Shown piece after piece: positions 3,357 through 26,159 of a DNA stretch of 34,979 bases. The stretch is taken from positions 1-34,979 of the forward strand of contig JAFXZW010000100.1 in NCBI GenBank assembly GCA_017541035.1, written 5' to 3'. The notes below the pieces were generated by a model. That model was not told where the DNA came from. It searched no databases and saw only the letters and a list, made by a program, of their open reading frames with translations. The first letter of the stretch is position 1. Every line of letters begins with the position of its first letter. Both the position numbers and the translations under genes were made by a program. This DNA comes from Eubacterium sp. (GTDB lineage: Bacteria; Bacillota; Clostridia; Lachnospirales; Lachnospiraceae).

Positions 3357-3397
3357 TTGCACATGTAGATATTATGTGGTAAAATCGACATAACTCT
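3357..3397 (+). promoter_or_regulatory. Promoter of the giant-pilin operon, twin of the one at 21938
   Basis: TTGCAC (3357-3362), a 17-bp spacer ending in TGTGG, and TAAAAT (3380-3385) form an extended -10 sigma-A promoter. It is followed by ACATAACTCT (3388-3397). The same layout, spacer end and downstream 10-mer occur at 21938-21978 before the pilus assembly genes. The transcript would have a leader of about 130 nt before ATG 3523. Confidence 0.7.
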
Positions 3398-3522: not shown

Positions 3523-6500
3523 ATGGAAATAATGATTAATCGGAATTCGAGATGTACGAAAATGAATAAAGGGATGGGAAGAAAAGGCTTCACAATGGTG
3601 GAGCTTATTGTCGTGTTGGTGATTTTGGCGATTCTGGCAGCAGTAGTAGTACCATTGATGTTTGGTTTCACAGATAGTGCGAAGGAGAAGAAATATACGG
3701 AAGAGGCCAAAAGGGCCTTAACGGCAGCTGAATCAATGCTTTCCACTGCGTATACGGAAAATTTGATGTATGTTCCAGCCAGGCTGCGGGAGCAGGCGGA
3801 GTTGGATGCGAATCTTCCAGACACAGGCCTGACTGTTTATACTAAGGAATCATTCCGTGTTGCCGACGGAACGTCCAAGACACTTGCATGTTACACGATA
3901 GTTGAGGCTGTATACAAAACCGACGATGGTCATTATCTGTACTATGATGGTTCGGAGTGGACAGTTAAGGATAGTCAGCCGGCAAGTGCTGATATAAAGA
4001 ATTCCGATAATGACATTATTGTTTGGCCTCGTGGACAGTATCTCACTGACTCGGCAGGAAATGCCAGTGATACAACAGCTCAAGGGGGCAATGATCCCAG
4101 CGAGCCAATCACTGAAGATGATGATACTAAGACGCATGATTATAGTGCAGACAATCCCGATGAACCGGAACCTGACATGCCAGATGATAGCTTCAAATCA
4201 GCATATATTAAGCTTGTAAGTGATGATCACTCAGTTTCTTTTGGTGGATCGCCCACATTTGAGACAATTTATACCGAAGATAATGGATTTGCGGAGAATC
4301 CAACCTATACTTTGAATACAATGCTGTATGATGACTCTAAAATGACATGGCAGAAAGGGGAGGATATTCCCTGTACCAGTCAAAGTGATTTCGCCGACCG
4401 TGTGAAGGAGTTGGTTGAGCAGTTGGCTCCTCCGGAAGGTGACGATCGTCCGACAACAACTTTTACTTTCCATGTTTCAGCGGATGAAAAGACGATTTCT
4501 ATTCCGATTACTTTTGAAGCATATAATAAAAAAACACTTTCTGTTTCTGTAATAGGTGGTGATGATAACACTAACACAGCAACTGTTAAATACGGAATGG
4601 TTTCGGGGCTTGATATAAGTCAGCTGCCGGTTGTTTCCGTGTCCGGAAATGATAATACGAAGTTTAGCGGGACATGGTATGGCAAAGCAAATGGTGTTGA
4701 TATCAGTGGTGCTGAAGCGAAAGACGCCAATTTTGCGACAGAGGTGAAGAATGTCGTAGATTCCTGGATGAATGCTAAAGTGCAGGAAGCTGAGAATTCA
4801 ACAGGGACACTGGATGTGGTTGCAATCGAAGCACAGGGTGTTTCCTTTGTTGCGCCGGCCGATGTTTATAAGACATTGTATGTCAAGGAAACAGATGGCG
4901 CTGGTAATACCGGGTTAATTAAGTTTGGTTCCGGTGCGGGTACAACCACGCAGTTGGTAAAGAAATATGCTAAAAATGAAAAGACGAAAGAACTATTTAC
5001 AGTAAACGGTTCGGGAGAAAAATCGGCAAGTGCCGTAGACGAAAATACATATTCTATCTTTACAGAGAATCCAATCTATGTTGGAAATGTGCCCTTTGCG
5101 TCCGCCAAAAAGAAGTTGAAGTTTTGGCATGTTTTTGAAAGCAATAATACAGGCGGAGAGCTAGTGGAGGACCTGAGCAGGAGGAATAGACAGAAGGATT
5201 GTAGTAGTATTCTATTAGGTAAACTCTATGATCCGACGTATGAGAAATATGGAGAAGTTGCGGAAATTGAGTTGACAGACTTGAGCACCCGACTTATTTA
5301 TTCCGATAATTCCCCTACTCCACTGAAGAGCACTTTTGAGACTCTCGTTGGTGGTGCCGGAAACATTAATGCAATCGAATTTTGTTTGAATCCTGATGAA
5401 CCGACACGTTACGCATCGCGGGATAAGGAAGTATGCATTTCTACGACAACGATTAAAGCCGGAAGCACATCTGGGATGTTAAAATTGAATGATGACGGAA
5501 AGTATGATGTGGCTACATATGATACTAATTACCCGGCGTATACAGTAGCATATCGTGTGAAGGATTCAAACGGAAAGTACACGATCTATGTCCTTGTAGA
5601 GGATGGGTCCGAGATGAAGGCACAGGGTAGTTATGCTCATCTTCATGATGGATTCAATTCCATGAGTGAGAATACATTTGTGTCGCATTTGGATACGGCT
5701 GCAGTGAATGATATGCAGTACATGTTTAATAAATGCGGTGCTCTTACAGGCTTGAATTTGGACAACTTTGAGTATACTGAAGTTCAGTCAACTGCATATA
5801 TGTTTGCTGAATGCGAACAGTTGACGAGCATCACTATGTCCGGACCGGCACCCAAGTTGACCACCATGGAGCGTATGTTCTCACAGTGTAAAGAAATACA
5901 AACGATCAACATGGGAACTTTCGATACAAGTGGTGCCAATGGGTCGGCTTCCATGCTTACATCTACAAAGAGGTTCCTGGATGGCGCTATCAAGTTGGAA
6001 AACTTGGATATTCGTAAACTTGATACCCGTTCTGTTACAAATATGGAGAGTATGTTCCGGAGTTGCGATGTTTTAGAGTCGATCACGTGGGATGACGGGA
6101 TTTATCCGCTTCACATTGATAGTGCGACGGATATTAATAGCCTTTTCTATAAATGCCATGCTATCAAGGGGGTAAGACTTGTTGGAAGTAACGTGGACAG
6201 TAAGGCGGCTACGGCGATTGAGACGCCCGCGACCAATCCTAAGATAGACAACGGGACGGGTATCTTTAAGCAGTGTTATGCATTACAAACAGTAAGGTTT
6301 GAGGATATCAAATTCACTGCACTGACGGGATTCGGGAATTTCTTTAGTGAGGTTAAGTCTGGCATAACGACTGTTGTATTTGACAACGTTGTAGCTCCGG
6401 CAGTGACGTCTTTTTATAGTTTGTTTGGGAATGATAAAGTGGATAGTGCTTGTACAAACCTGACGACTGTTACTTTCGATGGTTGTGGCTTTGCAGGCGT

Positions 6501-9500
6501 TACAACCATGGAAAAAATGTTCCGTAACTGTACGAGTCTTCAGGTCAGTGGAATTGATTTTACAGATACGAATTTTGGCAGTTTGAATAATACCAAATAT
6601 ATGTTTGCCGGCTGCACCGGCTTTGTAGGGGCAATCGATCTTGATTCTACTCAGTTGGATTTAAGCAATGTGACAAATATGCAGTACATGTTTGAGGGTT
6701 GCACGGAGCTAACATCAGTGACTGTTTTTCCGTCTTGTAGCAGTGGTGTTAATTGCGATTACATGTTCCATAATTGTGATGCGCTGGTAGTTGTGGATTC
6801 CTTTAATATTCAATATGCTTCAAGCATCAAGGGATTATTCCAGAGCTGTGATCAATTAACAAGTGTCACACTTACAGGAAGTAATTCAGACAGCGGTGAT
6901 GCATCGGCTATTGATACATCGTTGACTCAGGTGGCGGATGCCTTTAAGGAAGACAGCTCTTTGGATACCATCAATATCGAGAATCTTCGATTTTCCGAGT
7001 TAACGAGTATGGGTGCGTTCTTTACAGATGTTAAGTCATCTCTGACAACGGTTTCTATTACAAATGTTGCGGCACCCCAAATGACGTCGTTTAGTAGATT
7101 GTTCCAGGGCTGTTCGTTATTAAGCAGCCTAACGTTTGATTGGAGGGGCTTGTCTACAATATCGGATATGAGCTACATGTTCTCCGGATGCGGTGTTCTG
7201 GACTTTGAACAGGTGGTGGACATTGTTCCCTCAAATCCTTCCGGTGTAAATTGCAAATATATGTTTGAAAACTGTGATTCATTTACAGATGTGCAGTCTT
7301 TTAACATCCGATATGCAAGTGATATTTCATATCTGTTTAATAAGTGCGATGGGCTTGTGAGCGTATCTTTGGTTGGTGACGGAATGGATCAAGGAGCTCT
7401 GCTTGAGACAAACCAGGATAAAGCAGCAGGTATATTTAATTCTTGTAATACTTTTTCGTCGTTGACTATTTCTGATCTGTATTTCGAAAAATATCAAAAT
7501 GGTGGTGAAATACCGGGGAATGTTGGAGACAAAGATAAAGCTTTTTCGTTGCAAAGGATTTTGAGATGGGCACCGGCGGAGAATATCGTATTGCGGAATA
7601 TTGCTTTCCCTGTTACCTTTGGTTCTTCTTACCAGATGTTTTATCAAAATAAGGTCGTTAAGTCGATAGTCCTCGAGAACCTAAAACTGCCCGGATTGGG
7701 ACGTATGAAACAGATGTTCTCTGAGTGTTCAAATGTTGAAACGATTACCTTCAAGAAGTTTGATGCGCCGAATGCGTGGAATTACGGAATCATGTTTAGG
7801 GATTGTCAAAAGCTTAAAAAGGTCGATTTTGGAAACGTTAATGAAGAGGGAGAAATACATACCTTTAACACAAATCACAACTCTGATTTTGAGGATATGT
7901 TCAAGAATTGCTATTCCTTACAGACTATTAAGGGGCTTGAGAAATTCAACACCTCGAGTGGAGTTGCGTTCACAAATATGTTTTATGATTGCAGATCTTT
8001 GGAAGTGTTGGATCTGTCTGGTTTTGTTATTGATCCGAGCAAACTCACAACTGTTTCAAAGCTTGAGAATATGTTTGGTACGACTGCGGAGAGCCAATTG
8101 ACTACGATTTATGCTTCTGAAGATTTTGTCCTTACATCTAAGCTTGAAGAAAAAAACATGTTTGGAGCAGGGTTGATCCATCTGTGTGGAGCGAACGGAA
8201 CCGCCATAAATAATGCTAGTTCTCCCAATAAGAAGTATACAGGCTATTATGCGTGGATCGACGGCAGAACTACGGATGGTCGTGCTGATTCACAAGGTTA
8301 CTTCACAAACAGCTCGCTAAGTAAGGCAAAATTGCGTGTAACAAATGGTAATTGGGTGAGTGCAGGTCTCCCCTCTGGAATGAGTGGTACTATTACCGCA
8401 TTTGGAAGAAATGATACATATAAAACCGAGCAAGAGCTTTTGGCATATTTTGATGCTAACCCAGAGGTGACACACTTCGAGTGCCATGATTCGAACTACA
8501 ATAACATAAATGTATACTTTTGGATTGACAGTGATAATAAACTGAATTGGTGGTCCGTGGCAAGGACGGTTTATATCAATGATAATACAATCAACATGTT
8601 CCAGAACTGGACAAACCTGGTTTCCGCTGACCTTAAATATTTTGACACAACCTGTATGTCAAGTATGAGTCAAATGTTCAGTGGGTGTACATCGCTTCAA
8701 CGAGCAAATATTAGTTCCTTCAATTATGACAATATATCATCGATATCAAAGATGTTCTATAATTGTGGAGCCCTTTCATCAGACGACGTACAGGGTGTTC
8801 GCACTGCAAGATTGGCGGGTGTAAATTGCAGCGAAGCATTTAGTGGATGCGAGGCATTTACAACGATCAAAGCCTTTGATATCACATATGCAAATGATAT
8901 CAGTGGATTGTTCAAGAATTGCAGTAATCTGACAAACGTAACACTGACGGGCTCGGGATATAAAGAGTCATCGGAAAAATGCGAATTGGCGAATGATGTG
9001 AATAAGAATAAAGAGGTTTTTAAGGATGCAGGGACTGAAGGCTTTTCGCTTACAATCAAGAATATATATTTCAAGAATTACAAATCAAATAAAGGTCAGG
9101 TTGCAACCGATAAGGCTTTATACAACCATGGCTTATACACATTGATTCATTCCGCAGAAAATGCTACAAATATCGAGTTAAATGGCGTTACGATGCCGAA
9201 TGTATATACCATGGAGTTTATGTTTGGAACATACACCAATAAAGAAGAGATAAAGGATGTTGGAAGTGTAAGAGATTTCCCGAAACTTGAAAACGTAAAA
9301 TTGATCAATATCAATGCCCCGATACAACGAATGAAGTCGATGTTCAAGTTGGCTGAGAATCTGAAAACAGTTGTGTTCAAGAATTTCGATACTTCATGGG
9401 GGTGGAATTTCAGCGTTATGTTCCAGGGGTGTTATAGTCTTACCAGCGTTGAGTTCGGAAAAGGATTCACAACTTTTGGAAGTAATGTACAGAATCCTGA

Positions 9501-10047
9501 GAGTTGGGATTTCCATACTGATTTCAACAGGATGTTCGACAGTTGTTGCAGTCTTACTTCCATTAAGGGAATAGAACGGTTTAACACATCAAATGCAAAA
9601 ACCATGACATTTATGTTTAATAATTGCTATTCTCTTAAAGAACTTGATCTGTCAAGCTTTGATACGACAGGCATGACGCATAAGTTCAAAATTACATACA
9701 ATGGAAGCAAGTGGGAAACACCTTTCTATCATATGTTCTGGACAGAAAGCGTCCCGGAGCAATACAGTAAGGAAAGCAGCGAATTGAAAACTATTTATGC
9801 TTCCGAGGACTTTACAGTACCCAGCAATTATATTGACGATAAGAATAAGAGCGTTGTGATTAATCCGAACACAATTCCAATGTTTGGTGAAAAACTGACG
9901 AATCTGACTGGTGGCAGCGCCAATGCCACAACAATGAATTCGGTAGATTCATCGAAGAAAAATACAGCATACTATGCGTGGATTGATGGCAGGAGTACGG
10001 ACACCAGAAGTGATACGCAAGGCTACTTTACAATGAAAACAAAATAA
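3523..10047 (+). CDS. Giant type IV pilin-like protein with BspA/DUF285 leucine-rich repeats
   Basis: This is a protein of 2174 residues. The N-terminus is a type IV prepilin signal: a basic leader ending GRKG22, then FTMVELIVVLVILAILAA, with cleavage expected after G22 and Glu at mature position 5. After the pilin helix and about 650 residues of unassigned sequence come DUF285 repeats of the pattern MxxMFxxCxxLxxLxLxxF (about residues 720-1570 and 1690-2174). Each block ends in the same cap: TIYASEDF, MFG, then YYAWIDGR and QGYFT (from residues 1528 and 2090). DUF285/BspA proteins are known surface and adhesion proteins, but fusion to a prepilin signal at this size is unusual. ATG 3523 has GAGAGG 6 nt upstream; the GTG at 3487 has no ribosome binding site. 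It is first in a five-gene pilin operon. I infer a pilus-displayed adhesin. Confidence 0.9.
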   Translation: MEIMINRNSRCTKMNKGMGRKGFTMVELIVVLVILAILAAVVVPLMFGFTDSAKEKKYTEEAKRALTAAESMLSTAYTENLMYVPARLREQAELDANLPDTGLTVYTKESFRVADGTSKTLACYTIVEAVYKTDDGHYLYYDGSEWTVKDSQPASADIKNSDNDIIVWPRGQYLTDSAGNASDTTAQGGNDPSEPITEDDDTKTHDYSADNPDEPEPDMPDDSFKSAYIKLVSDDHSVSFGGSPTFETIYTEDNGFAENPTYTLNTMLYDDSKMTWQKGEDIPCTSQSDFADRVKELVEQLAPPEGDDRPTTTFTFHVSADEKTISIPITFEAYNKKTLSVSVIGGDDNTNTATVKYGMVSGLDISQLPVVSVSGNDNTKFSGTWYGKANGVDISGAEAKDANFATEVKNVVDSWMNAKVQEAENSTGTLDVVAIEAQGVSFVAPADVYKTLYVKETDGAGNTGLIKFGSGAGTTTQLVKKYAKNEKTKELFTVNGSGEKSASAVDENTYSIFTENPIYVGNVPFASAKKKLKFWHVFESNNTGGELVEDLSRRNRQKDCSSILLGKLYDPTYEKYGEVAEIELTDLSTRLIYSDNSPTPLKSTFETLVGGAGNINAIEFCLNPDEPTRYASRDKEVCISTTTIKAGSTSGMLKLNDDGKYDVATYDTNYPAYTVAYRVKDSNGKYTIYVLVEDGSEMKAQGSYAHLHDGFNSMSENTFVSHLDTAAVNDMQYMFNKCGALTGLNLDNFEYTEVQSTAYMFAECEQLTSITMSGPAPKLTTMERMFSQCKEIQTINMGTFDTSGANGSASMLTSTKRFLDGAIKLENLDIRKLDTRSVTNMESMFRSCDVLESITWDDGIYPLHIDSATDINSLFYKCHAIKGVRLVGSNVDSKAATAIETPATNPKIDNGTGIFKQCYALQTVRFEDIKFTALTGFGNFFSEVKSGITTVVFDNVVAPAVTSFYSLFGNDKVDSACTNLTTVTFDGCGFAGVTTMEKMFRNCTSLQVSGIDFTDTNFGSLNNTKYMFAGCTGFVGAIDLDSTQLDLSNVTNMQYMFEGCTELTSVTVFPSCSSGVNCDYMFHNCDALVVVDSFNIQYASSIKGLFQSCDQLTSVTLTGSNSDSGDASAIDTSLTQVADAFKEDSSLDTINIENLRFSELTSMGAFFTDVKSSLTTVSITNVAAPQMTSFSRLFQGCSLLSSLTFDWRGLSTISDMSYMFSGCGVLDFEQVVDIVPSNPSGVNCKYMFENCDSFTDVQSFNIRYASDISYLFNKCDGLVSVSLVGDGMDQGALLETNQDKAAGIFNSCNTFSSLTISDLYFEKYQNGGEIPGNVGDKDKAFSLQRILRWAPAENIVLRNIAFPVTFGSSYQMFYQNKVVKSIVLENLKLPGLGRMKQMFSECSNVETITFKKFDAPNAWNYGIMFRDCQKLKKVDFGNVNEEGEIHTFNTNHNSDFEDMFKNCYSLQTIKGLEKFNTSSGVAFTNMFYDCRSLEVLDLSGFVIDPSKLTTVSKLENMFGTTAESQLTTIYASEDFVLTSKLEEKNMFGAGLIHLCGANGTAINNASSPNKKYTGYYAWIDGRTTDGRADSQGYFTNSSLSKAKLRVTNGNWVSAGLPSGMSGTITAFGRNDTYKTEQELLAYFDANPEVTHFECHDSNYNNINVYFWIDSDNKLNWWSVARTVYINDNTINMFQNWTNLVSADLKYFDTTCMSSMSQMFSGCTSLQRANISSFNYDNISSISKMFYNCGALSSDDVQGVRTARLAGVNCSEAFSGCEAFTTIKAFDITYANDISGLFKNCSNLTNVTLTGSGYKESSEKCELANDVNKNKEVFKDAGTEGFSLTIKNIYFKNYKSNKGQVATDKALYNHGLYTLIHSAENATNIELNGVTMPNVYTMEFMFGTYTNKEEIKDVGSVRDFPKLENVKLININAPIQRMKSMFKLAENLKTVVFKNFDTSWGWNFSVMFQGCYSLTSVEFGKGFTTFGSNVQNPESWDFHTDFNRMFDSCCSLTSIKGIERFNTSNAKTMTFMFNNCYSLKELDLSSFDTTGMTHKFKITYNGSKWETPFYHMFWTESVPEQYSKESSELKTIYASEDFTVPSNYIDDKNKSVVINPNTIPMFGEKLTNLTGGSANATTMNSVDSSKKNTAYYAWIDGRSTDTRSDTQGYFTMKTK
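8104..8311 (+). repeat. First DUF285 C-terminal cap inside the giant pilin
   Basis: It encodes TIYASEDF, an MFG motif, then YYAWIDGRTTDGRADSQGYF. The same sequence of motifs closes the protein at 9790-10044. It marks the end of the first leucine-rich block and points to an internal duplication. Confidence 0.75.
9790..10044 (+). repeat. Second DUF285 C-terminal cap at the end of the giant pilin
   Basis: It encodes TIYASEDF, MFG, a GG-containing loop, then YYAWIDGRSTDTRSDTQGYF just before the end of the protein. It is homologous to the cap at 8104-8311. Similar caps end many BspA-like surface proteins of Firmicutes. Confidence 0.75.
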
Positions 10048-10070
10048 GAATAGTAAAAAGGAATGATGAT

Positions 10071-13000
10071 ATGGGTTTTTCAATATTTAAACTTCATATC
10101 CGTAAGGTGCATGCATCATCCGACAGGGGTTTTACCCTTGTTGAGTTGATTGTTGTGCTTGCATTGATGGCGATTTTGCTCAGTATCACGGCTTTCGGTT
10201 CGATTAGCTGGCTTGATTGGAGTCGTTTCCAGCAGGAGGATAGTTATGCAGAATCTATCTTTTATGCTACACAGAATCAGATTACTGAGATGGATGCAAG
10301 TGGCGCATTGGATCAGAAAATGGATATGCTGCGTAATAGCGCCGGAAGTTTCGACTCTATTTATGTCCTTGCTCATGGGAAGGATTCAGCTGCTGGTTTT
10401 TCCGGATACTATGATACAAATGGAAATCTGTATGAGTGGAATAAATTGTGGAAGGACAAAAACCTGGATAAAGAGGAACGTACACTTCTGCATCTGACAG
10501 CAGACGCGACTGATTATGATGATTATCTTGATGATCCCTCAAATGTAGATCCGGGGACCCGGGTTTTGTTTGATTTGATAGGTGCAATTATTTCAGACAA
10601 AAAAGTGTTAAATGGGTCGATTGCTATAGAATTTTCGCCGGAAGCGGCACAGGTTTTTGCGGTTTGTTATTCGGATCAGGCAGATGGCTTTGAGTATCGT
10701 GATACCACAGCTGCGGGAAGAGTTGATATTCGGAATCGTAAATTGCAGATCAGAAAAGACGAAATGGTCGGATACTATGCGGTCGACTCTTTGACGATGA
10801 AGCTGAAGGGGAAGAGCAGAAATTCAGCAGGATATACGCTTGAACTTGAGAACGAAGATTATTTCTCAATGATTCTTCATCCGAGAGATGAGGTAAAGCT
10901 TGAGGAGGCGAAACTGACATTTACCATAAATGGTGCATCTACATATGCCGGAAATTATGATAAGCAGTTTACATTTGTGATTGATGGATCGGATGAAGAT
11001 ACAAGTGATGACATTACAGCTAAGAATCTGACGGATGCGCTCGATAATCCGCTGAATGTCAAGTGTGATTTTTCCAAGGGACTATATGCGGATACGGATG
11101 ATCGCGTATTCCGAATTCCTGTGTGGAAAGATGACGCGACAGGATATGTTCATATCATTCTTGATGCGGCAGACATTCAGGCACAGTCTCTTTTATATGC
11201 ACAATCACTTGGGGGGATTGCAGGTATCAGCGATGCCGAGAAGACACAGGCACAGGAGAATTTCCGCAGAACATTTAGCTTCTATCGGTTTGGTTTGCCG
11301 AATGTTCGGTTCCTTCGGGCAGACGTTTTGGTAGCGTCTTCTTCAGGCAATGGCGGGGGCTCCGCCGGACGCAGAGTAGGAGGCGAGGTTATCCCTTATG
11401 GTACGAATGGGATTTTAGGAGAGGCGGTCACTTTTGCTAATTGGGATTCCAAGGATACGGATCAGACATATGGTATACTGAATGGGCGCCATTTCTATAA
11501 TATTCGCTTTGAATCTGATTATAGTGATGAGTTTAAAATGTTCGAAATATATAGCGATGGAGATGCAAAATCCAGAGAATTCGTTTTAAAGAGCAATATT
11601 GATTGGGCTTCCTATGCATATTTGACGAATTCCTTCCCTACCTCTTTAGGAGGTGTCACGTCAGGAACTTATGGGATCGGATTGAATCCTTTGGAGCTTC
11701 CTCGTGAATTGTATTACGAAGAATCTGATGGAACGAAAGTCAGCCCCGGTACGGATATGAAGAAATATCCGTTCCCGAGTTTTCGTATGCTTTCATATAG
11801 TGATAAGTTCACTCAGGAGAAGGACCCGTCCGCGGATGACGATTATTTTTCCATTTCAGGATTAAACATTTCGCTGGCTGCGAATTGCATTTATGGCATC
11901 TATGGAGAGGATGTCCAGGACTGTTTCAGGGATTCCTCTACAATGTCAAAAGCTTTTCGTATGGATAATTCATCTTCGTATGATACGCTGATCCAATATG
12001 GTAAAGCAGGTATGCTTGCGCTAGGACTTTTTGCTGAGAATGGAGGAGAACTCAGCAATCTGGAGATTGACAGAATTCAGGTTAGAGGAGTGGAAGGTTT
12101 TCCGGTGAGTACACCTGATAAGTATCTTGTTGCATCACGAGTTGGTGGATTTGTCGGTGAAAACCTTGGCACGTTAACAAAACTCTATATCGATGAGAGG
12201 AGAGCGAAGGGCACGAAGGCCGAGTCCTGGATACGGGGACGTTCAGATGTGGGCGGAATCGTTGGCCATCAGTATTGGATCGTAAAGAAGAAGGGGGAAG
12301 TAGCGTCTACAATCACCAATGATAATCCGTATCCTGATACTACAATCACAATATCAGGTTGTGTCAACAACGCAAAGGTTACCGGTATCGGTTATGTTGG
12401 TGGTATCATAGGACGAATATATCCGAAAGGCGCAGATAGTTTCGATGTTCAGTGCCGGATTGGGGATACTGATAAGCGATACAATACATGGTACCTTACC
12501 ATACTTCATGAAAAACTCTTTAGTATGAGTGTTGCAGAAAGGAATGTGATTGAGGGATGCAAAAACCACGGTGAGATATCCATGGATCCTTCGTATGCGG
12601 AAAAGGAGATTGACGGAAATTCCTTCCGTAGAGGATACTATTTCGGAGGTATAGCCGGAGCGGCGTTCCAATCACAGTATACTGCGGGTAATTCCTTGAA
12701 CTATGATTTCAGTTCAAATGCAAATAAAAGAGCGGTGATTAAAAATTGCGACAGTGATACACTCTATACAAAAACAGATTTAATGAAGATCCTAAACCCC
12801 GGTAATGATGGCGAGAATATGAAGGAGGCGAAGAGATTTCTTCGCATGCAGTTTGTTGGTGGAATTGTTGGTGGCGCAGCGTATGCATATATTGAGGATT
12901 GTTCCACTACTCCGTCTGGTGAGAATAAAGGAAAGTATTCTTTCCTGTTTGGGGATCGGTATGTGGGTGGAGTGGCTGGTTATGCCGTAGAGACTACATT

Positions 13001-16000
13001 TACGGGATCAGATACATACAATAAAAATGAGTTTGTTAAGCTCGTCGAGCTTGGATTGACGGGGGAAAGATCAAAGTATAGAAGTGATTATTCTGTGATC
13101 AATGGCACCGGCGTGTATGGAAACTATGCGATTGGTGGAATCGCGGGGGCTTTTGGAATACCGGAAGGTGAACATGATGGGGATTTGATAGTGAAATCCG
13201 GGCTTGAGGCAGCATACTCCGGATCTTATTCAGATGGTCAGAAAACGGTTACCATGGGTATTGGATATCCGGCAGGTTGTGGAGCGTCGATATCAAGTCA
13301 GCACGCTATTACCGGCCTCCTCAATACGTCGGTTGTTCTGGGTGGAAGTTTCAATGCGAAAGTAAACAGTAATGAGAATTTGGTGGGCGCTGAAACAACC
13401 GATCGGTGTTACTATGGTATCGGCGGCGTGGCCGGCGTGCTTGCTACCACGATCCGAAATGCTGATTATGTTCAGTCAGAAGCAACAAAATCTTTTTATT
13501 ACGGATTGATCTGTACAGGAATAACGAATGCTCCGACGGATGTTTCCAAACTGACCGCAGTTGATAAACTCTGCACTATTGTTGAAAATTCGCTTTTCGT
13601 TACGGACGGAACCGGCGGAATTGTGGGAGAGGCGCTTCGGAACGGGAATCTGAACTCCGCTCTGGGTAAGGCTCGTTACAGTTCCACGATCGATGCCGTA
13701 ATCTTTGGCAGGAATCGTGTCGGGGGTGCGATTGGAGATAATTCTGCGTCAATAAGTAGTGGCGGACAGTCCGTTGTTGCAAATATGTATCCTTCCAAAG
13801 TGAACAGTGGAAGTTCAGGCCTTGTTGTCTTCGGATATGAGAATGTTGGTGGTTTGGTCGGCGCATTTTCTGATAACGGTGGAAACGGAGTAACCGCAAG
13901 CTTTAATTCCGATGATAATATATTTAAAAATGGTAATAATGACGTGATTATTACAACGCCCTTCCGTGTATTGGGATATCGTGCAGTAGGTGGCGCGATT
14001 GGCACATTTTACGCTGATGACGGGAAGGAAGCAAAGGTGACGGCGAAAATAAAGATAGAGGCAAGTGCTGTTATCACCGGCAGCATGTATGTCGGAGGAG
14101 CAATTGGAATTCAGGAGGGATATTCGAAGTCAAATGCGAGATATATCTTACGACTGCAGAATACAAGCGTTCGTGCTGATTGCTTTGCCGGCAGTATAGC
14201 AGGTGCTATACTTTCTGATCGTGGTTATTGGCCGTTAGATAAGTTGACGGATAATACAACTAACAGTAAGGTGAATAATGCAAAAGCAGAAGCGGACATA
14301 TGTGCCGGATTCGTGACTGGGCTTTATGCGTATCAGGGAACTCCGGGCGAGAACGTGGATAGTAATAGTGTACTATGGAACACCACAGGTGAGAACGGAA
14401 TTCAGAACTACAAGCGTTATGATGACGGATCTCATAATGGATTGTACAATATTACGAAAATCAACAATCTGAAGTGTACGGTACCTGATTCATTTGATGA
14501 GAATACGTATTTGGAATTCATTAAAGGAATCAAGGGAGTATACAATGATTTGCTTGTTCCGACCGCCGGTATTGTGATAGATATGCAGGGCTTTTGTGAA
14601 AAGGTACAGGAAAAGGGCGGAATTGTTTCAGCGAAGCTTTATGTTGGTGGACTGTGTGGATATATACCGGAGCGAATTGTCAGTGATAGTGACATAGAAG
14701 CAGGGAGGACGCTGACGATTTATTACTATCGAAATCGTTCCAGGTTAAGAACTTCCGGGGCGGTTCGTTCCTGTGAGATAGGTTCAAATGATGAGAATTA
14801 CTATTCATATCTTGGCGCGGTTACCGGACGGATTCCTCCGGGAATGAAGTTAAGTAGTTGTAAAAACACTTCCGGATCACAACCTTCGGAAGAAGCCGTA
14901 GGGAATTATTATGCTAAATCCACAAATACCAGTTTTGTTGGTGGACTGACAGAGGTGAATGCCGGCTGGATCGAATATGCAGGCTATTTGAATGCAAGCA
15001 CCAATAAGTTATACTTTGATGACAAAGCCATGAATTCTAAAGTTTATTATATTGAGAATATAAATGGTGGAGTAGGATATGTGGCCGGATTAAATGGAAC
15101 AAGTATTACGGATGGCGTTTATACTGGAGTTATTTGTAATAGCGCAGATGTGTATTGGCTTAGGGGAAAGACAGTTGGTGGAATCGCGGCAGCAGCGGGT
15201 GGTTCTTCTACAATACGTGATTGCGTGAGCCATGGAGATATTACAGTAATTAAAAATAACAACGCAAGCGGAGATAAAGGCGCGGCAGGGATTCTGTATG
15301 AGGTATCAGACTTTGTTCCGGCAGGGAAAACAATTGTTCTGTCCGATAATTCCAGCAGTTGCAAGACAACAATAGATAAAAGTTGCGATGGCGCCAAGAT
15401 AACCGGCATTGTTTATAATACCCGGGGAAAGGGTGATGTTATCCGTTGCCGGAATTATACTCCGGAGCTGTCTTATGCTATTACTTCGTCTGAAGTGGGA
15501 AAACGTGCAAATTCAATTATCTATTGTATAGATGCTAGTAACAGTGCTGAAAAATCGAGTGACAAATATACTGGTTTCGGAATGACCACCGGTAATCTTG
15601 ACAGTATGTATGGTAATCTTTATATCGGAAAGAAGACCGGGCAGACACAGTACTTTGCAGTCAATAGTATGTATGTTAATAATTTCGCGGATTATGATGG
15701 GAAAGCGCTTACAGACGCGGATCTGAAAGTGCCGATAAGAACTTATGACGAACTGCCTTCAAGAACAAGGATAGAATCTCAGATACAGGGCAATGCCGGC
15801 TGGGAGGATAGTCTGAAGAACTCCGATGATACCGGATATCGCGGTGTTGAGATCAACGTGGTTGATGGTAGTGGGCATTCGAATGGCACTTACGCGGATG
15901 TGGATGCTATCACTATCCGTTGGAACAAAGGAAGTGTAGATGAGACATATCAAAATCAGATGATTCTTTATGATGCTGATGGAAAGAGAATGTCTATAGG

Positions 16001-16649
16001 ACAGATTCTTACATCTGTATCGAGTGGATCGGATTTTGATCAGAAGGTAGACATCTCTGAGTATTGGAATAACAGGGCGACGAACGGAATTCGTTATGAT
16101 TCGGGATTTAACATTGATCAGATTTCAAAAATAGTGATCATTGTATGTGGAGCGACGAACGGTTCGGGTACAATTGGTATCAAGGGACTGTCGTGGAATA
16201 CAACAAGAGCGGGACAGGCGGTATCCGTGCCTATGATATTTGATCCCAGTAGAAATGTGAGCAGTTTAACTGATGCGCTGGAAGAGGTCGAAAAGGATCA
16301 GTTGTCGATGCTTTACTTTGAAGAAACAGCAGCAAATCAGCCGCATCTCTATTTAAATGGTGTATCAACAGGTATTAGCGCAATTGATGTTGATCGAAGG
16401 GCGGCGGCTGATCAACACGATCCGCCTAAGATTGAGCTTGTGAACACAGATGGTTCTCAGCAGTATTTCTCAGAGGACTATCTGAACAATTCGCAAACTT
16501 TCAGACAGAATAATTCCTTTGCTGATATCGCAAATATCGCTTCTGCGGCGGATAGAAGTAATATTCCGATCCCGAGGTTCAATTTTTACAGGTATTTGGA
16601 TATGGAGCATCGCCTTCCTGCAATCTATTACCCTGATACTACGCCGTAG
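10071..16649 (+). CDS. Giant type IV pilin-like protein with GLUG-type VGGxxG repeats
   Basis: This is a protein of 2192 residues with a prepilin signal: the leader ends SSDRG20, then FTLVELIVVLALMAILLS, with Glu at mature position 5. From about residue 690 to 1730 it has some 15-20 copies of a VGGxxG motif (VGGFVG, VGGIVG, IGGIAG, VGGAIG, VGGLCG), each followed by short beta-strand-like stretches and often a xxxC element. This matches the GLUG motif of bacterial surface proteins and suggests a long beta-helix-like or stacked beta domain. The last 300 residues form a separate region that I cannot assign. AAGGA at 10058-10062 sits 8 nt before ATG 10071, and the gene starts 23 nt after the BspA-like pilin. 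There is no LPXTG anchor, so surface attachment would rely on the pilin helix. Confidence 0.88.
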   Translation: MGFSIFKLHIRKVHASSDRGFTLVELIVVLALMAILLSITAFGSISWLDWSRFQQEDSYAESIFYATQNQITEMDASGALDQKMDMLRNSAGSFDSIYVLAHGKDSAAGFSGYYDTNGNLYEWNKLWKDKNLDKEERTLLHLTADATDYDDYLDDPSNVDPGTRVLFDLIGAIISDKKVLNGSIAIEFSPEAAQVFAVCYSDQADGFEYRDTTAAGRVDIRNRKLQIRKDEMVGYYAVDSLTMKLKGKSRNSAGYTLELENEDYFSMILHPRDEVKLEEAKLTFTINGASTYAGNYDKQFTFVIDGSDEDTSDDITAKNLTDALDNPLNVKCDFSKGLYADTDDRVFRIPVWKDDATGYVHIILDAADIQAQSLLYAQSLGGIAGISDAEKTQAQENFRRTFSFYRFGLPNVRFLRADVLVASSSGNGGGSAGRRVGGEVIPYGTNGILGEAVTFANWDSKDTDQTYGILNGRHFYNIRFESDYSDEFKMFEIYSDGDAKSREFVLKSNIDWASYAYLTNSFPTSLGGVTSGTYGIGLNPLELPRELYYEESDGTKVSPGTDMKKYPFPSFRMLSYSDKFTQEKDPSADDDYFSISGLNISLAANCIYGIYGEDVQDCFRDSSTMSKAFRMDNSSSYDTLIQYGKAGMLALGLFAENGGELSNLEIDRIQVRGVEGFPVSTPDKYLVASRVGGFVGENLGTLTKLYIDERRAKGTKAESWIRGRSDVGGIVGHQYWIVKKKGEVASTITNDNPYPDTTITISGCVNNAKVTGIGYVGGIIGRIYPKGADSFDVQCRIGDTDKRYNTWYLTILHEKLFSMSVAERNVIEGCKNHGEISMDPSYAEKEIDGNSFRRGYYFGGIAGAAFQSQYTAGNSLNYDFSSNANKRAVIKNCDSDTLYTKTDLMKILNPGNDGENMKEAKRFLRMQFVGGIVGGAAYAYIEDCSTTPSGENKGKYSFLFGDRYVGGVAGYAVETTFTGSDTYNKNEFVKLVELGLTGERSKYRSDYSVINGTGVYGNYAIGGIAGAFGIPEGEHDGDLIVKSGLEAAYSGSYSDGQKTVTMGIGYPAGCGASISSQHAITGLLNTSVVLGGSFNAKVNSNENLVGAETTDRCYYGIGGVAGVLATTIRNADYVQSEATKSFYYGLICTGITNAPTDVSKLTAVDKLCTIVENSLFVTDGTGGIVGEALRNGNLNSALGKARYSSTIDAVIFGRNRVGGAIGDNSASISSGGQSVVANMYPSKVNSGSSGLVVFGYENVGGLVGAFSDNGGNGVTASFNSDDNIFKNGNNDVIITTPFRVLGYRAVGGAIGTFYADDGKEAKVTAKIKIEASAVITGSMYVGGAIGIQEGYSKSNARYILRLQNTSVRADCFAGSIAGAILSDRGYWPLDKLTDNTTNSKVNNAKAEADICAGFVTGLYAYQGTPGENVDSNSVLWNTTGENGIQNYKRYDDGSHNGLYNITKINNLKCTVPDSFDENTYLEFIKGIKGVYNDLLVPTAGIVIDMQGFCEKVQEKGGIVSAKLYVGGLCGYIPERIVSDSDIEAGRTLTIYYYRNRSRLRTSGAVRSCEIGSNDENYYSYLGAVTGRIPPGMKLSSCKNTSGSQPSEEAVGNYYAKSTNTSFVGGLTEVNAGWIEYAGYLNASTNKLYFDDKAMNSKVYYIENINGGVGYVAGLNGTSITDGVYTGVICNSADVYWLRGKTVGGIAAAAGGSSTIRDCVSHGDITVIKNNNASGDKGAAGILYEVSDFVPAGKTIVLSDNSSSCKTTIDKSCDGAKITGIVYNTRGKGDVIRCRNYTPELSYAITSSEVGKRANSIIYCIDASNSAEKSSDKYTGFGMTTGNLDSMYGNLYIGKKTGQTQYFAVNSMYVNNFADYDGKALTDADLKVPIRTYDELPSRTRIESQIQGNAGWEDSLKNSDDTGYRGVEINVVDGSGHSNGTYADVDAITIRWNKGSVDETYQNQMILYDADGKRMSIGQILTSVSSGSDFDQKVDISEYWNNRATNGIRYDSGFNIDQISKIVIIVCGATNGSGTIGIKGLSWNTTRAGQAVSVPMIFDPSRNVSSLTDALEEVEKDQLSMLYFEETAANQPHLYLNGVSTGISAIDVDRRAAADQHDPPKIELVNTDGSQQYFSEDYLNNSQTFRQNNSFADIANIASAADRSNIPIPRFNFYRYLDMEHRLPAIYYPDTTP

Positions 16650-16677
16650 TGCTTTAGACTGAAAAGGAATGAATCGC

Positions 16678-17475
16678 ATGAAGAATAACAAGCAACGATC
16701 AAAACTGCATAAAGTAGACGGGAATGACCGGGGTGTGGCTTTGATCGCTGCAGTGGTTATCATATCCATACTGATCGTTTTCACATTCTCCCTCATGTTG
16801 GCTGCCTATAACCTGTATTCATCACAGAATAAGAATGTGTCCAGTATGATGTGCACACAGGCGGCGAATACACTTAGCGCAGCATTGGATCAGGAGTTGA
16901 CTTATGAGAATAAAAGTACCGGAAAGTATCCCGAAAAGGATAGCTATCTGTACAGATACATTCGGTATAATCTATGTCAGTCCGATACTTGGCCGTATTA
17001 CAAAGCGGGAACTGCTGGACACGGTCAAAAGGAAGCGTATCGGATTTTTGAACTGGTGCATGCAAATGGGAAGAAGGTTCAGAGTGCCGGGGGAAAGATA
17101 TCTGAATCCGAAACTCGGACGATTACGAGTATCGAAGGAAAACCCGGAAGGATTAAGATCTGTATGTATTGGGAACCGCCGAAGTCTGCTACAGAAAGCG
17201 AGCTTGTGAATAATGCATCAAACCTGCCCTTTAAAAAAGGAATCATACTGCACGTGATTGTTACCTGCGAATCGGCCAGCCAAACGTATTCGGTAGAAAA
17301 AAAGTATGTGCTTGACATATCCCATTATGGTATGGAAGGTGCGTCAAAAATGAACAGAATTGTTACAGCGGCTTCTGATCCTGCAATTAATCCATTGGGG
17401 ATCGATCCGGATGTGGATACGGAAAAGTTTACTAAAGATGAGCAGTGGATTTGGAGTATAACGGAAGAGCAATGA
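16678..17475 (+). CDS. GspK/PilX-like minor pseudopilin
   Basis: This protein of 265 residues has a basic leader ending GNDRG19 followed by the hydrophobic stretch VALIAAVVIISILIVFTFSL. Position +5 of the mature form is Ala, not the usual Glu. That is the hallmark of the GspK pseudopilin, and the RGVAL-type start is common in PilX/GspK proteins. In those families the protein lacking Glu5 sits at the tip of the pseudopilus and starts assembly. ATG 16678 lies 9 nt after AAGGA; the in-frame ATG at 16669 directly abuts that site and is less likely. Its stop overlaps the next start (ATGA). The extracytoplasmic part shows no domain I recognise. Confidence 0.75.
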   Translation: MKNNKQRSKLHKVDGNDRGVALIAAVVIISILIVFTFSLMLAAYNLYSSQNKNVSSMMCTQAANTLSAALDQELTYENKSTGKYPEKDSYLYRYIRYNLCQSDTWPYYKAGTAGHGQKEAYRIFELVHANGKKVQSAGGKISESETRTITSIEGKPGRIKICMYWEPPKSATESELVNNASNLPFKKGIILHVIVTCESASQTYSVEKKYVLDISHYGMEGASKMNRIVTAASDPAINPLGIDPDVDTEKFTKDEQWIWSITEEQ

Positions 17476-18002
17476 TCAAGGTGAGGGATATGACCAAAAG
17501 AAATCGTGGTATAATAGTGAATAACAGCGGAGAGACAATGGTCGAAATGATCGTATCCTTTACGATTTTGGCAATCGTCATGTTGGCACTCGGAGGGATG
17601 ATTTACTATTCCTCCGTCCTTCGCATGCGTGCTACGGATACTTCCGATGTTTGTTCATCGTTCTATCAGGCGATATATAAAAAGACTCCGGATGCTGATC
17701 AGGTAGATGCATACTATTACGTTGGCAGCCACGCCGATGATAATACTACGATGTTTAAGTTTGTACTTAGTGACGATACAGACGATGATAACCTGAGGGA
17801 CATTCGGACAAAATTCACGAATGCAATTAAGGTGCCAAATATCGATGCTACGGGATATAAGAGTAAGGATCCGTTGATAACCTCGGAGAATCTGGTTACG
17901 CCAAGAGCGGTACTATTTATGTACAACGGAAGTGTAAAATCTTCATCCATTACAGGTAATACCACCGGTAGTGGTTCAGGCGGCAATTCAGAAGGAAACT
18001 AA
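17472..18002 (+). CDS. Minor pilin/pseudopilin with atypical +1 Glu
   Basis: This protein of 176 residues has a leader ending NNSG20 and the core ETMVEMIVSFTILAIVMLAL, so Glu is at mature +5 as in type IV prepilins. The +1 residue is Glu where Phe or Met is common. The start ATG overlaps the previous stop by four bases (ATGA), and GGAAG lies about 4 nt upstream. The globular part (residues 50-176) has no recognised domain and ends in a Gly/Ser/Asn/Thr-rich tail. Translation is probably coupled to the GspK-like gene. Gene order suggests a GspI/J- or PilV/W-like partner in a tip complex, but that role is an inference. Confidence 0.75.
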   Translation: MIKVRDMTKRNRGIIVNNSGETMVEMIVSFTILAIVMLALGGMIYYSSVLRMRATDTSDVCSSFYQAIYKKTPDADQVDAYYYVGSHADDNTTMFKFVLSDDTDDDNLRDIRTKFTNAIKVPNIDATGYKSKDPLITSENLVTPRAVLFMYNGSVKSSSITGNTTGSGSGGNSEGN

Positions 18003-18021
18003 GAACGAAGGGATATTTGAC

Positions 18022-18693
18022 ATGAAGATCAGATGCATGTGGAAAAACCTATATCGTAAAAAGAACGATCGTGGCTCAACGATGATTGAGATGGTCGTTT
18101 GCTTTGCGTTGCTTGGGATTTTCATGGCCAGCGCAGCAGTTATGATATCTAATGTGACCTCAATTCATTATGAGATTAAAGGAGAGTTACTGTCAAGAGA
18201 GGTATCGGATATTCTGATGGAGAAGATGGTTTCGGAAATTGATGGTGCCGCCTATTACGGAATTGGTAACGATGGAAATCCTAAAATATTGAATGGTAAT
18301 TCCGAAATAGAGTTGACGGATAAAACTGATACCCATGTGACGTTGAAGATGAGTGAATCTCAGTTGATGGTTCATTATCATGAAATCTTAATTGATGGAT
18401 CAGACAAAGATCCGAAAAGTAGAAATGCATCGGATTGGAAATTTGACAAGAATCTTTATAAAGGTTTTTATCTGACCGGATTGTCTTTCTATATGGGTGG
18501 GGGTAAAAATCCTTCTGACCCAGATAAGTATGGGCTATCATCTATCAGTATGTCGGATTATCCGTCAAATGTGGTTTTGATTCTTATGAAATTAAAGCGT
18601 CAGGGAAACAATGAGGAGTATCATTACTATCGATTTGTAAAGATGTATAATGTTCCTGAGACAAATAATCCGGACCCTTCACCAGCACCTTAA
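18022..18693 (+). CDS. Minor pilin/pseudopilin (PilW/GspJ-like position)
   Basis: This protein of 223 residues has the leader ending KKNDRG18 followed by STMIEMVVCFALLGIFMASA, with Glu at mature +5. The first mature residue is Ser. ATG 18022 has AAGGGA 8 nt upstream and lies 19 nt after the previous stop, so it is the last gene of the five-gene pilin operon. The rest of the protein contains no domain I recognise, and it ends in a Pro-rich tail (NPDPSPAP). Longer minor pilins at this position are often GspJ/PilW-like. I see no clear terminator in the 100 nt after its stop. Confidence 0.75.
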   Translation: MKIRCMWKNLYRKKNDRGSTMIEMVVCFALLGIFMASAAVMISNVTSIHYEIKGELLSREVSDILMEKMVSEIDGAAYYGIGNDGNPKILNGNSEIELTDKTDTHVTLKMSESQLMVHYHEILIDGSDKDPKSRNASDWKFDKNLYKGFYLTGLSFYMGGGKNPSDPDKYGLSSISMSDYPSNVVLILMKLKRQGNNEEYHYYRFVKMYNVPETNNPDPSPAP

Positions 18694-21937: not shown

Positions 21938-21978
21938 TTGTATATCTGCACGATTTGTGGTAGAATTAACATAACTCT
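21938..21978 (+). promoter_or_regulatory. Promoter of the pilus assembly operon, twin of the one at 3357
   Basis: TTGTAT (21938-21943), a 17-bp spacer ending TTTGTGG, TAGAAT (21961-21966), then ACATAACTCT (21969-21978). Spacer length, the extended -10 TGG and the downstream 10-mer match the promoter of the giant-pilin operon. The first gene starts about 85 nt downstream. Confidence 0.7.
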
Positions 21979-22058
21979 GTCGATATGATAATTTAGGACT
22001 GGATAAATGGCAGTTATTGATCCGGTCCTGCAGGGGGACTAAGAGCACGAGGGAAGGT

Positions 22059-22517: not shown

Positions 22518-22528
22518 CTGAGGAATTT

Positions 22529-22686: not shown

Positions 22687-22689
22687 AAG

Positions 22690-23100
22690 ATGGACTGGTT
22701 GGAATTTACAATCATCTTATCCCGTATTTTTATCGAGATAATCTTTTTTGCAATCGGTGCCAGCATTTTCTCGTTCCTGAATGTGATCATTTACCGACTT
22801 CCCCGACATATGCAGTTTTCACTGGGACACTCCATGTGTACGACCTGTGGGCATGAGCTTTCCATGAGGGATATGATCCCAATCCTTTCCTGGCTGAAGC
22901 TGAGAGGAAAATGCAGGTACTGTGGAGCGAAGGTTTCCGCCAGGTACACCATCGTGGAAACGCTGGGTGGGTGCTTTGCGGTATTGTGGACACTCGTTTT
23001 TGGGATAAAATGGCCTGCGCTGGCTGCATTTCTTGCATCCGGTGCTCTGACGGTGGTAATATATATTCTGTATGACAAGATGAAGCAAAGCCGCCTCTGA
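22690..23100 (+). CDS. pilD: Prepilin peptidase N-terminal domain only (half-length PilD)
   Basis: This protein of 136 residues matches the N-terminal half of type IV prepilin peptidase. It has a first helix with FAIGASIFSFLNVIIYRLP, then a zinc-type module CTTCGHELSMRDMIPILSWL with GKCRYCGAKVSARYTIVE (two CxxC pairs), then two more helices. Full-length enzymes have about 230-290 residues and two catalytic Asp, the second in a GGGD motif. Here the chain stops at YILYDKMKQSRL. D129 may align with the first catalytic Asp, and the rest of the peptidase domain is absent. An 18-bp palindrome and a REP-like element begin right after the stop, which suggests truncation. The N-terminal domain is linked to N-methylation, so this could be a methylation-only or inactive protein. 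A complete peptidase would be needed elsewhere. Confidence 0.8.
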   Translation: MDWLEFTIILSRIFIEIIFFAIGASIFSFLNVIIYRLPRHMQFSLGHSMCTTCGHELSMRDMIPILSWLKLRGKCRYCGAKVSARYTIVETLGGCFAVLWTLVFGIKWPALAAFLASGALTVVIYILYDKMKQSRL

Positions 23101-23225: not shown

Positions 23226-24434
23226 ATGGCAACAACCTTTCGTTACAAAGCACAAAATGAAGACGGACGGATCCTGTCCGGTTCGATCAAGGCACAGGAT
23301 CAGGCTGAGCTGCAGGGGAAGCTGAAGAATGACGGCCTTCTTTTGGTGGATGCAAAGGAGCTGACCAAGGGAAAGACAGTCTACAAGAAGCTGAAGGAGG
23401 ATCAGGTGTCGGAATTTTCCCGGAACCTGGGACGTCTTCTTTCGGCCGGCGTGACACTGGTAAAGGCTCTACAGATCATGTCGGAGGATGAGTCCATTAA
23501 GGAGACGGAGCGTAAGCTCTACACGGACATCCTTCGAAGTGTTCGTTCCGGTATGACGCTGTCCGATGCGATGGAGGATCAGGGCGGCTGTTTTCCAACG
23601 CTTTTTGTAAATATGATACGAAGCGCGGAGAGCGGCGGAAATATGGACGTGACGGCGCTGAACATGGCTGAATATTACAGCAAGGAGTATCGCCTGAAAC
23701 AGAAGGTGAAGAGCTCCATGACTTACCCGAAGATCCTGGGAGCCCTGATCGTCGTGGTTCTGATCGTCATCATGGGCTTCGTTCTGCCGCAGTTTGAGGG
23801 TATGTTCTCACAGATGGATTCCCTTCCTCCGACAACGGAACTCCTGATGGGTTTGTCAGATTTTGTAGCGAAGAAATGGTACCTTCTGCTTTTCGGGATT
23901 ATTGTCCTTTTCATGGTATGGAAAGTGGTTTCTTCCCTTCCGAAGGTGCGGCTCTTCCTGGATAAAATGGAGATCCACCTTCCGAAGATCGGAAAACTCC
24001 GGAGAGTTGTATATACGGCACGTTTTGCACGAACCCTTGCCAGTATGTACAGTGCGGGTATCCCCATTGTAACCTGTCTGCAGATCGCCCGATCCACCAT
24101 CGGGAATAGCTATATTGAAAGCCAGTTTGATCAGATGATCGCGGATATCCGGGCCGGAAAGTCCCTTTCCGAGGGTCTGGCGGAGATCGACGGTTTCGTG
24201 AAGAAGCTTCCTTCCTCCGTTGCGGTTGGTGAGGAAACGGGTGCGTTGGACAATATGCTGAATTCCATAGCCGATCAGATGGAGTATGATTCCGAGATCG
24301 CTATCGGTAAGCTGGTGGCGATGATCGAACCCCTGATGATCGTCATAATGGCAGTAATGGTCGGGTTCATCATGGTTGCAGTAATTCAGCCGATCTACGG
24401 ATCTTATCAGACGATCGCAGATCAGGGAGGTTGA
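23226..24434 (+). CDS. pilC: Type IV pilus inner-membrane platform protein PilC/GspF
   Basis: This protein of 402 residues is of usual family length. It is the polytopic platform that couples the assembly ATPase to pilin extrusion. It begins with the typical FRYKAQNEDGRILSGSI strand region. Two T2SF repeats follow (about residues 65-190 and 268-390), each with the family patterns FSRNLGRLLSAGVTLVKAL and FARTLASMYSAGIPIVTCL, plus SAESGGNMD and GEETGALDNML. Three hydrophobic segments are visible (about 167-192, 220-240 and 370-393). AAAGGA precedes ATG 23226. Its last codons carry the AGGGAGG site of the next gene, only 3 nt away, so translation is probably coupled. Confidence 0.95.
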   Translation: MATTFRYKAQNEDGRILSGSIKAQDQAELQGKLKNDGLLLVDAKELTKGKTVYKKLKEDQVSEFSRNLGRLLSAGVTLVKALQIMSEDESIKETERKLYTDILRSVRSGMTLSDAMEDQGGCFPTLFVNMIRSAESGGNMDVTALNMAEYYSKEYRLKQKVKSSMTYPKILGALIVVVLIVIMGFVLPQFEGMFSQMDSLPPTTELLMGLSDFVAKKWYLLLFGIIVLFMVWKVVSSLPKVRLFLDKMEIHLPKIGKLRRVVYTARFARTLASMYSAGIPIVTCLQIARSTIGNSYIESQFDQMIADIRAGKSLSEGLAEIDGFVKKLPSSVAVGEETGALDNMLNSIADQMEYDSEIAIGKLVAMIEPLMIVIMAVMVGFIMVAVIQPIYGSYQTIADQGG

Positions 24435-24437
24435 TGT

Positions 24438-25963: not shown

Positions 25964-26130
25964 AGATCCTTCGCGCTCCGCGCTCAGGATGACAGAAGGG
26001 CATGCTCAGGGCGGCGGATAGTATGTCATTCCGAGCAAAGCGAGGAATCTTTTGATACGAGAAATCCTGCGCACTCAATGTGACAGAAGGGCATGCTCAA
26101 GATGACAGAAGAACATGCTCAGGGCGACGG
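25964..26130. repeat. Composite REP-like array inside the pilus assembly operon
   Basis: It contains a minus-orientation core (AGATCCTTCG ... TCAGGATGACA, 25964-25994), a plus-orientation core (TGTCATTCCGAGCAAAGCGA, from 26024) and a degenerate minus copy (from 26060). ATGACAGAAGGGCATGCTCA or close variants occurs three times (about 25989, 26080 and 26102). The 200-nt gap between pilMN and pilO is otherwise empty. Confidence 0.75.
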
Positions 26131-26159
26131 TAACCAAGTGGGAAAATGGAGGACGATCC

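Follow-up and report, generated by a model that had tools for sequence, protein, structure and literature searches.

A stretch of 34,979 nucleotides from Eubacterium sp. (Lachnospiraceae; assembly GCA_017541035.1, contig JAFXZW010000100.1; hereafter the window) was analysed for two neighbouring genes encoding putative giant type IV pilins. The window constitutes contig C19 of its 2.98-Mb genome (139 contigs); genomes, contigs, loci and proteins are denoted by G, C, L and P numbers. The giant genes (giant 1, P0001; giant 2, P0002) are followed by three small minor pilin genes (P0003 to P0005), and genes for PilC, PilM, a PilO-like protein and PilB are located 4 to 10 kb downstream of the pilin genes (block 22017-28824; Table 1). 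Spacing of the pilin genes is operon-like (start codons chosen by us): the intergenic gaps measure 23, 19 and 19 bases, and one pair of genes overlaps by 4 bases (ATGA). G+C content is 0.38-0.46 in the pilin operon and 0.46-0.55 downstream of 19 kb.

An earlier model-made annotation of the letters (the sequence-only reading) had described two adjacent genes for proteins of this size, and both were found to be intact open reading frames. Giant 1 (frame 3487/3523-10047) has 2174 amino acids (aa) counted from the ATG at 3523 and a computed mature mass of 237.8 kDa; giant 2 (10071-16649) has 2192 aa and a mature mass of 235.6 kDa. Both are roughly tenfold larger than an ordinary pilus subunit. The complete prepilin signals with glutamate at position 5 (Glu5) described there were confirmed as well. 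The class III signals GRKG/FTMVE in giant 1 and SDRG/FTLVE in giant 2 are each followed by a hydrophobic stretch and score 26.5 and 29.4 bits, respectively, with Pfam N_methyl (cut-off 21.2).

For giant 1, the predicted DUF285 leucine-rich repeats (LRR) were recovered with Pfam (PF03382, E 3.2e-64, 9 stretches) together with BspA-type LRR (PF13306, 4.8e-15), and the LRR part begins at residue ~730. Residues 22-155 (the first ~134 of the mature protein) aligned with nearly the whole 169-aa pilin encoded downstream of pilB in G160, a genome of the same genus (42% identity, 144 columns), and the module was 41% identical over 148 to the small pilin downstream of pilB in G120. With phmmer, it matched geopilin (7tgg, 9e-6) and PilE1 of Streptococcus sanguinis (8pfb, 1.5e-5). 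Identity to 7 orthologs was 37-47% at residues 1-150 and 16-24% across the following 150, and this break at residue ~150 is the pattern of a graft. Judged by its sequence, giant 1 consists of an entire small-pilin module to which another part has been grafted. The small-pilin match, the break and the LRR from residue ~730 give it the distinct pilin module and the separate non-pilin domain of a modular pilin, and it is encoded beside a type IV filament machine. N_methyl and DUF285 were both above their cut-offs in 8/8 giant-1 orthologs scanned, which had been selected by BLAST similarity to P0001.

The helix region of giant 2 resembles small pilins by sequence match. The GLUG repeats ascribed to this protein held as a motif: 14 matches to [VIFL]G[GA][ILVFA][AVICL]G were counted in P0002, vs at most 2 (mean 0.09) in any of 2000 shuffled sequences. 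As a Pfam family, Glug was above cut-off in one of 9 other giant-2 orthologs (L050, 7e-8), just below it in 2 and without match in 6. Compared with 8 orthologs, giant 2 was 33-48% identical in its first 150 residues and 9-24% identical, with numerous gaps, in its final 92; the protein combines a conserved base with a variable far end. Glu5 is invariant in the giant-2 alignment A3, whose 24 sequences were picked for having the signal; 5/28 candidates were left out of it, 2 cut at the far end (both with signal) and 3 without an N-terminus in the locus. Two further arrangements were recorded. L072 contains two tandem giant-2-type genes (3220 aa; the second runs off the locus end) with nearly identical signals; nothing in this locus matches K, I or J. 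On C19 of G179 (L167, L168; 7% contamination in this genome), a 7664-codon open frame with a Glu5 class III signal is located beside PilB and PilT-like genes.

The three minor pilins reported to follow the giants are present, hereafter referred to as K (P0003), I (P0004) and J (P0005). P0003 has the junction G/VALIA without Glu5, as described, and matches no Pfam family. P0004 (G/ETMVE) and P0005 (G/STMIE) carry Glu5 and are both above the N_methyl cut-off. A set of small minor pilins including one without Glu5, as in an HIJK-type tip complex, was thus found, and the orthologs agree. The description of one of them as GspK-like fared less well. P0003 itself had no GspK match in NCBIfam; among the K orthologs, GspK was the most frequent NCBIfam match (4/11 at E<=0.5, best 3.7e-4), near background, with unrelated membrane families matching 3/11 at similar E-values. 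A PDB sequence search with the K family gave no usable match. Members of the J alignment matched N_methyl and otherwise only single weak unrelated families. P0004 has a Glu instead of a hydrophobic residue at +1 after the cleavage Gly, where its 11 aligned orthologs carry other residues.

In G160, the gene order is giant 1, giant 2, K, I, J, P0009, prepilin peptidase N-terminal domain (A24_N), PilC, PilM, PilO, PilB, one gene and the small pilin. G120 has the same order, with A24_N and the gene preceding the small pilin not listed and the I gene, which would fall at the border of two sequence stretches, not read. Pilin and assembly genes are contiguous as one block in G160, L055, L056, L058 and L062. 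P0003 matches were obtained in 13/200 family genomes (own included), and 10 of the 12 other neighbourhoods hold a giant (1542-4429 aa) with signal. Of the remaining two, G152 has a 198-aa prepilin in place of the giant, and G179 has none in the stretch around K; its head matches are in a frame of 7664 codons on C19 and in one of 3515 codons on C25, the latter ~9 kb beyond that stretch. The giant adjoining K was of the giant-2 type in 10/10 genomes where a giant was found.

A scan of public genomes found 99 relatives, and 80 loci from it were retained. A complete giant 2 (>=1000 aa, Glu5 signal) was found in 22/80 loci, with lengths of 1881 to 3906 aa; the remaining 58 fell outside these criteria, many matching the pilin helix only or being cut by contig or locus ends. 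Since the 80 loci were sought partly by signal pattern, the signal count among them is not independent, as the helix-free profile described below is; the set also overlaps with the P0003 neighbourhoods (L112 is the contig of G120). At least one of K, I or J was present in 19/22 loci with a complete giant 2. Open frames of 2215 to 2441 codons with a giant-2 head occur in Lachnospiraceae NE2001, AC2029 and Eubacterium sp. MSJ-21, which are listed as strain genomes and not metagenome-assembled ones. The conservation of the giants beside K-I-J-type pilins and assembly genes, and the small-pilin module in giant 1, bear out the assignment of this operon to a pilus or pseudopilus.

The co-occurrence with pilus assembly genes proposed by the sequence-only reading was examined with a profile (A5) of the giant 2 head without the pilin helix. 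A5 matched 44/397 genomes of the family. In a draw of 391 genomes from the class it matched 8, of which 3, counting the genome under study, belong to that family. The only strong match outside the family (G491, 5e-78) is a 2034-aa protein with signal, followed by two small prepilins. PilB (P0014 as query, E<=1e-80) was found in 41/44 head-positive and 17/36 head-negative genomes (Fisher 7e-6, descriptive, with genome kinship ignored here and below); the 36 controls were taken in handle order, leaving out seven less complete genomes. At E<1e-195, a subfamily cut set after inspection of the PilB match table, the counts were 31/44 and 0/36 (Fisher 4e-12). The best PilB match was within 30 kb of the head in 23 of 30 strong head loci, at 49 kb in 1 and on other contigs in 3, and 3 had none. 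The signal check covered these 30 strong matches of the 44. A scripted check found the Glu5 signal in 26/27 strong head matches from PilB-positive genomes, and in the 27th (G172) it was visible by eye in a broken gene. Homologues without pilus genes had been named beforehand as a finding that would count against a pilin function. Three of the 44 genomes lack PilB. Their head matches comprise two intact proteins that have an ordinary hydrophobic segment at the N-terminus in place of a prepilin signal, and one protein that has the signal but is truncated at 338 aa.

In the assembly block, P0012 alone found no PilM in a PDB search and the family profile did; the PilO-like protein has no Pfam match, and P0009 gave no convincing PDB match (best 0.031). 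By our reading, P0009 has a pilin-like outline and lacks a prepilin signal; it is located in the assembly block of relatives. The A24_N protein (22690-23100) keeps its four cysteines. G160 (L037), NE2001 (L091) and RUG11997 (L056) have it in this short form too, and full-length peptidase forms occur in L041, L063, L065 and L088. Among the 18 window proteins scanned against Pfam, none was GspD, GspC or GspL of the type II secretion system (T2SS); no genome-wide search for these was made. A small pilin gene is located downstream of pilB in several relatives (L038, L040, L088, L091). A second pilus locus is present on contig C60 of the genome (L013, L014), with PilB, a PilT-sized ATPase, a PilC-like gene (our reading), a 159-aa pilin, a 611-aa prepilin, a 1063-aa candidate without Glu5 and a 2188-aa protein with DUF5057.

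A common promoter-like element (GTGGTAAAATCGACATAACTCT; 22 positions, 20 specified) precedes both giant 1 and the assembly operon, in each case with a similar stretch before it. At <=2 mismatches it occurs at exactly two places in the genome, and a third place has three mismatches; as the pattern was derived from its two sites, the informative part is its absence elsewhere in the genome. A similar element with 3 mismatches is located <100 bases before giant 1 in 2/8 relatives (UBA4381, L054; AC2029, L060). Because pilin and assembly genes form one block in relatives, the window arrangement looks like a block split by insertion with an element copy retained on each half. No Rfam family reached threshold across the window, and none matched at E<=1 upstream of giant 1; hence no known cyclic di-GMP riboswitch was seen. 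Generic scans of the window were near background, with 57 promoter-like matches vs 45.2 (sd 5.8) and 16 terminator-like matches vs 13.0 (sd 3.8) in shuffles.

Table 1. Pilin, assembly and flanking features of the window.
Feature	Position	Strand	Support
Giant pilin 1 (P0001), 2174 aa: class III signal, ~150-aa pilin module, linker region, DUF285/BspA-type LRR	3523..10047	+	
Giant pilin 2 (P0002), 2192 aa: class III signal, conserved head, GLUG-like repeats	10071..16649	+	
P0003, K-type minor pilin without Glu5	16669..17475	+	
P0004, minor pilin, I-like by position and signal; Glu at +1 and +5	17472..18002	+	N_methyl 22.7 bits, cut-off 21.2
P0005, minor pilin, J-like by position	18022..18693	+	N_methyl in P0005 and 11 orthologs (12/12); alignment
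Promoter-like element GTGGTAAAATCGACATAACTCT, upstream of pilin operon	3376..3397	+	
Promoter-like element, second copy, before assembly operon	21957..21978	+	
P0009, conserved protein of assembly operon with one transmembrane (TM) segment	22017..22517	+	present near PilC in relatives
Stand-alone A24_N domain without catalytic half	22690..23100	+	PF06750 5.4e-30
PilC-type platform protein	23226..24434	+	PF00482 7.6e-58
PilM (P0012), probably fused to PilN-like C-terminal part	24438..25958	+	family profile matches PilM in PDB 3jc8, 8e-8; fusion deduced from sequence
Putative PilO-like protein	26115..27110	+	position and one N-terminal TM segment; similar genes in relatives
PilB extension ATPase with MshEN domain (P0014)	27139..28824	+	PF00437 3.4e-123, PF05157 8.5e-12; co-occurrence
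PDDEXK_2 transposase-family gene, flanking pilin operon	2380-3255		
Unassigned gene between pilin and assembly operons	18764-19657		
Glycogen-debranching gene (glgX) between pilin and assembly operons	19733-21814		

The two genes are likely to encode giant modular type IV pilins built on a PilB/PilC/PilM/PilO-type machine, with binding domains projecting from the filament. In the proposed mechanism, the class III signal would insert each giant in the membrane, the prepilin peptidase encoded on another contig of the genome would cleave it after the Gly, and the PilB/PilC/PilM/PilO-type machine would assemble the processed proteins. The Glu5-less P0003 would be the starter and form an initiating tip complex with P0004 and P0005, in which giant 2, kept beside K, would be the fourth subunit. 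The module of giant 1 is of the major-pilin type and resembles the small pilin downstream of pilB in relatives; this protein would be located in the tip, directly beneath it, or in the shaft. In both ~240-kDa proteins, the LRR or GLUG-like regions would then extend outwards as binding domains. The giants would most likely be displayed at the filament tip and probably act as huge adhesins on a hair-like filament; the repeat types suggest adhesion by the extra modules. Plant fibre, mucus or other microbes are reasonable guesses for the ligand because of the sources among the relatives' records, presumably rumen, omasum and rabbit gut (in part deduced from project codes). As a tentative and more specific proposal, a distinct Lachnospiraceae type IV filament subclass with its own PilB subfamily might display the giants. 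In it, giant 2, with a length from about 1.5 to more than 7 thousand residues, would stand in for the H-type minor pilin of the tip, and giant 1 would be derived from a major pilin and occupy a shaft or sub-tip position.

Several observations weigh against giant modular pilins on this machine. Pilin and assembly operons in the window are kept apart by two unrelated genes, and 6/8 relatives, G160 among them, have no copy of the common element within 4 mismatches upstream of giant 1. No catalytic half is present in the window peptidase fragment, and contig C107 holds the only Peptidase_A24 match above cut-off in the genome. No small major pilin is located near PilB in the window; a likely one on C107 has 169 aa (L016:11088-11597) and an N-terminus 69% identical to giant 1 over 39 aa. 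The second PilB system on C60 could also serve the giant pilins. P0002 itself has no Pfam Glug match even at E<=1, hence its repeats are termed GLUG-like only, and no PDB sequence matched the conserved giant 2 head, so that its pilin fold past the helix is putative. The K, I and J names are based on gene order, signals and a near-background GspK match, and 3/22 giant-2 loci have no K, I or J (L061, which ends 346 bases later, L072 and L074). Finally, the head-positive genomes without PilB number only three.

It is unlikely that the giants are plain surface adhesins instead of filament subunits, with the prepilin signal as a membrane anchor (cleaved or not) and a length that spans the wall. The head can exist without a pilus, as in the two homologues anchored by an ordinary hydrophobic N-terminus in PilB-less genomes, and neither giant has a C-terminal LPxTG anchor (a single LPDTG in P0001 is located only within the pilin module), so that the N-terminus would have to anchor them. 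In a plain adhesin, however, the signal should not track PilB, yet it does (26/27 vs 0 intact of 3), and both the PilB co-occurrence and the full small-pilin module of giant 1 argue for a filament. Mis-assembly or chance as the origin of signals and giants has a negligible probability and is already refuted: the window does come from a 139-contig assembly, but intact giants of 1881-3906 aa with signal recur in 22 loci, and giants are found in 10/12 P0003 neighbourhoods.

Other arrangements of the same proteins on a filament were also considered. A T2SS-like pseudopilus, in which a short wall-spanning piston carries out or releases the giants and does not retain them on a long pilus, is improbable. 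It would be consistent with the weak GspK match of 4/11 K orthologs and with the genome's only other T2SSE-family matches, the PilT-sized one included, being located on C60 and none beside the window PilB. Small pilin genes downstream of pilB in the four relatives listed above, the presence of PilM, and an ATPase-like gene of 349-379 aa (PilT-like by size and partial P0014 match) beside PilB, or where PilB is cut off, at 9 giant-2 loci (L041, L043, L052, L064, L065, L068, L069, L070, L075) speak for a long pilus instead. With somewhat better, though still low, prospects, giant 1 might be a shaft subunit inserted at intervals like the bristles of a brush, with only giant 2 in the K-I-J tip. Its module is closest to the small pilins downstream of pilB, and the giant beside K is always of the giant-2 type (10/10). 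Against this, it has been argued that the filament body cannot accommodate bulky modules (PMC10628169), and one operon for both giants would fit low, equal amounts.

For comparison with known systems, the papers cited here are represented by their consulted parts. In the S. sanguinis model, filaments grow tip-down from a Glu5-less pilin and bulky modules are at the tip because they are unfit for the shaft (PMC9934059, PMC10628169, PMC10191384). The S. sanguinis modular pilins PilB and PilC share with the giants a Glu5 class III signal, a small pilin module and a C-terminal binding module (PMC8179133, PMC9934059, PMC10628169), as well as a monoderm host, the occurrence of two modular pilins together and a tip complex with one Glu5-less pilin. 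They differ in size (50.5 and 52.8 kDa vs 237.8 and 235.6 kDa mature here) and in modules (vWA and lectin vs LRR and GLUG-like repeats), and three small minor pilins accompany the giants here. With the GspH/I/J/K and PilHIJK tip complexes (PMC10191384), the locus shares a four-subunit logic with a Glu5-less cap and weakly GspK-like K orthologs, but a giant would take the place of the small H subunit. Type IV pili of gut Clostridia have been linked to cellulose binding in Ruminococcus albus and R. flavefaciens; their pilins are small (14 kDa Pil3; GP25), and no giants are reported there (PMC3672088, PMC6916266).

Giant 1 has the repeat type of BspA/DUF285 surface proteins (PF03382, PF13306). 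Such proteins are usually anchored by lipidation or a sortase signal, whereas giant 1 is headed by a prepilin signal and a pilin module. IPR026906, which we take to be the BspA-type LRR entry, is among the 15 commonest extra domains in an InterPro survey of modular pilins (>1,200 proteins, 264 architectures), so that LRR pilins are probably already contained in it (PMC8179133). The most extreme case by domain number in that survey is an 860-residue protein, and its section 9 describes no multi-thousand-residue pilin, GLUG pilin or dedicated operon, although its Dataset S1 may list such proteins. The modular pilin principle is thus known (PMC8179133). In the open-access PMC literature, no GLUG pilin or pilin of this size was found described, and the novelty within this literature lies in the size of the subunits, their pairing, the conservation of the giant-2 family and its link to one PilB subfamily.

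The modular pilins for which detailed studies were found are the ~50-kDa S. sanguinis pair. The locus described here adds putative subunits of ~240 kDa, with relatives of 2 to 4 thousand residues; in Lachnospiraceae of gut and rumen, these are accompanied by a gene set that is conserved. The strain genomes with a giant-2 head make it testable what size of cargo a type IV machine extrudes through a thick wall and what the pili of gut Clostridia bind. If a dedicated filament subclass is indeed present, its type IV machine would have to move pilins through the Gram-positive wall that exceed in size all those found described.

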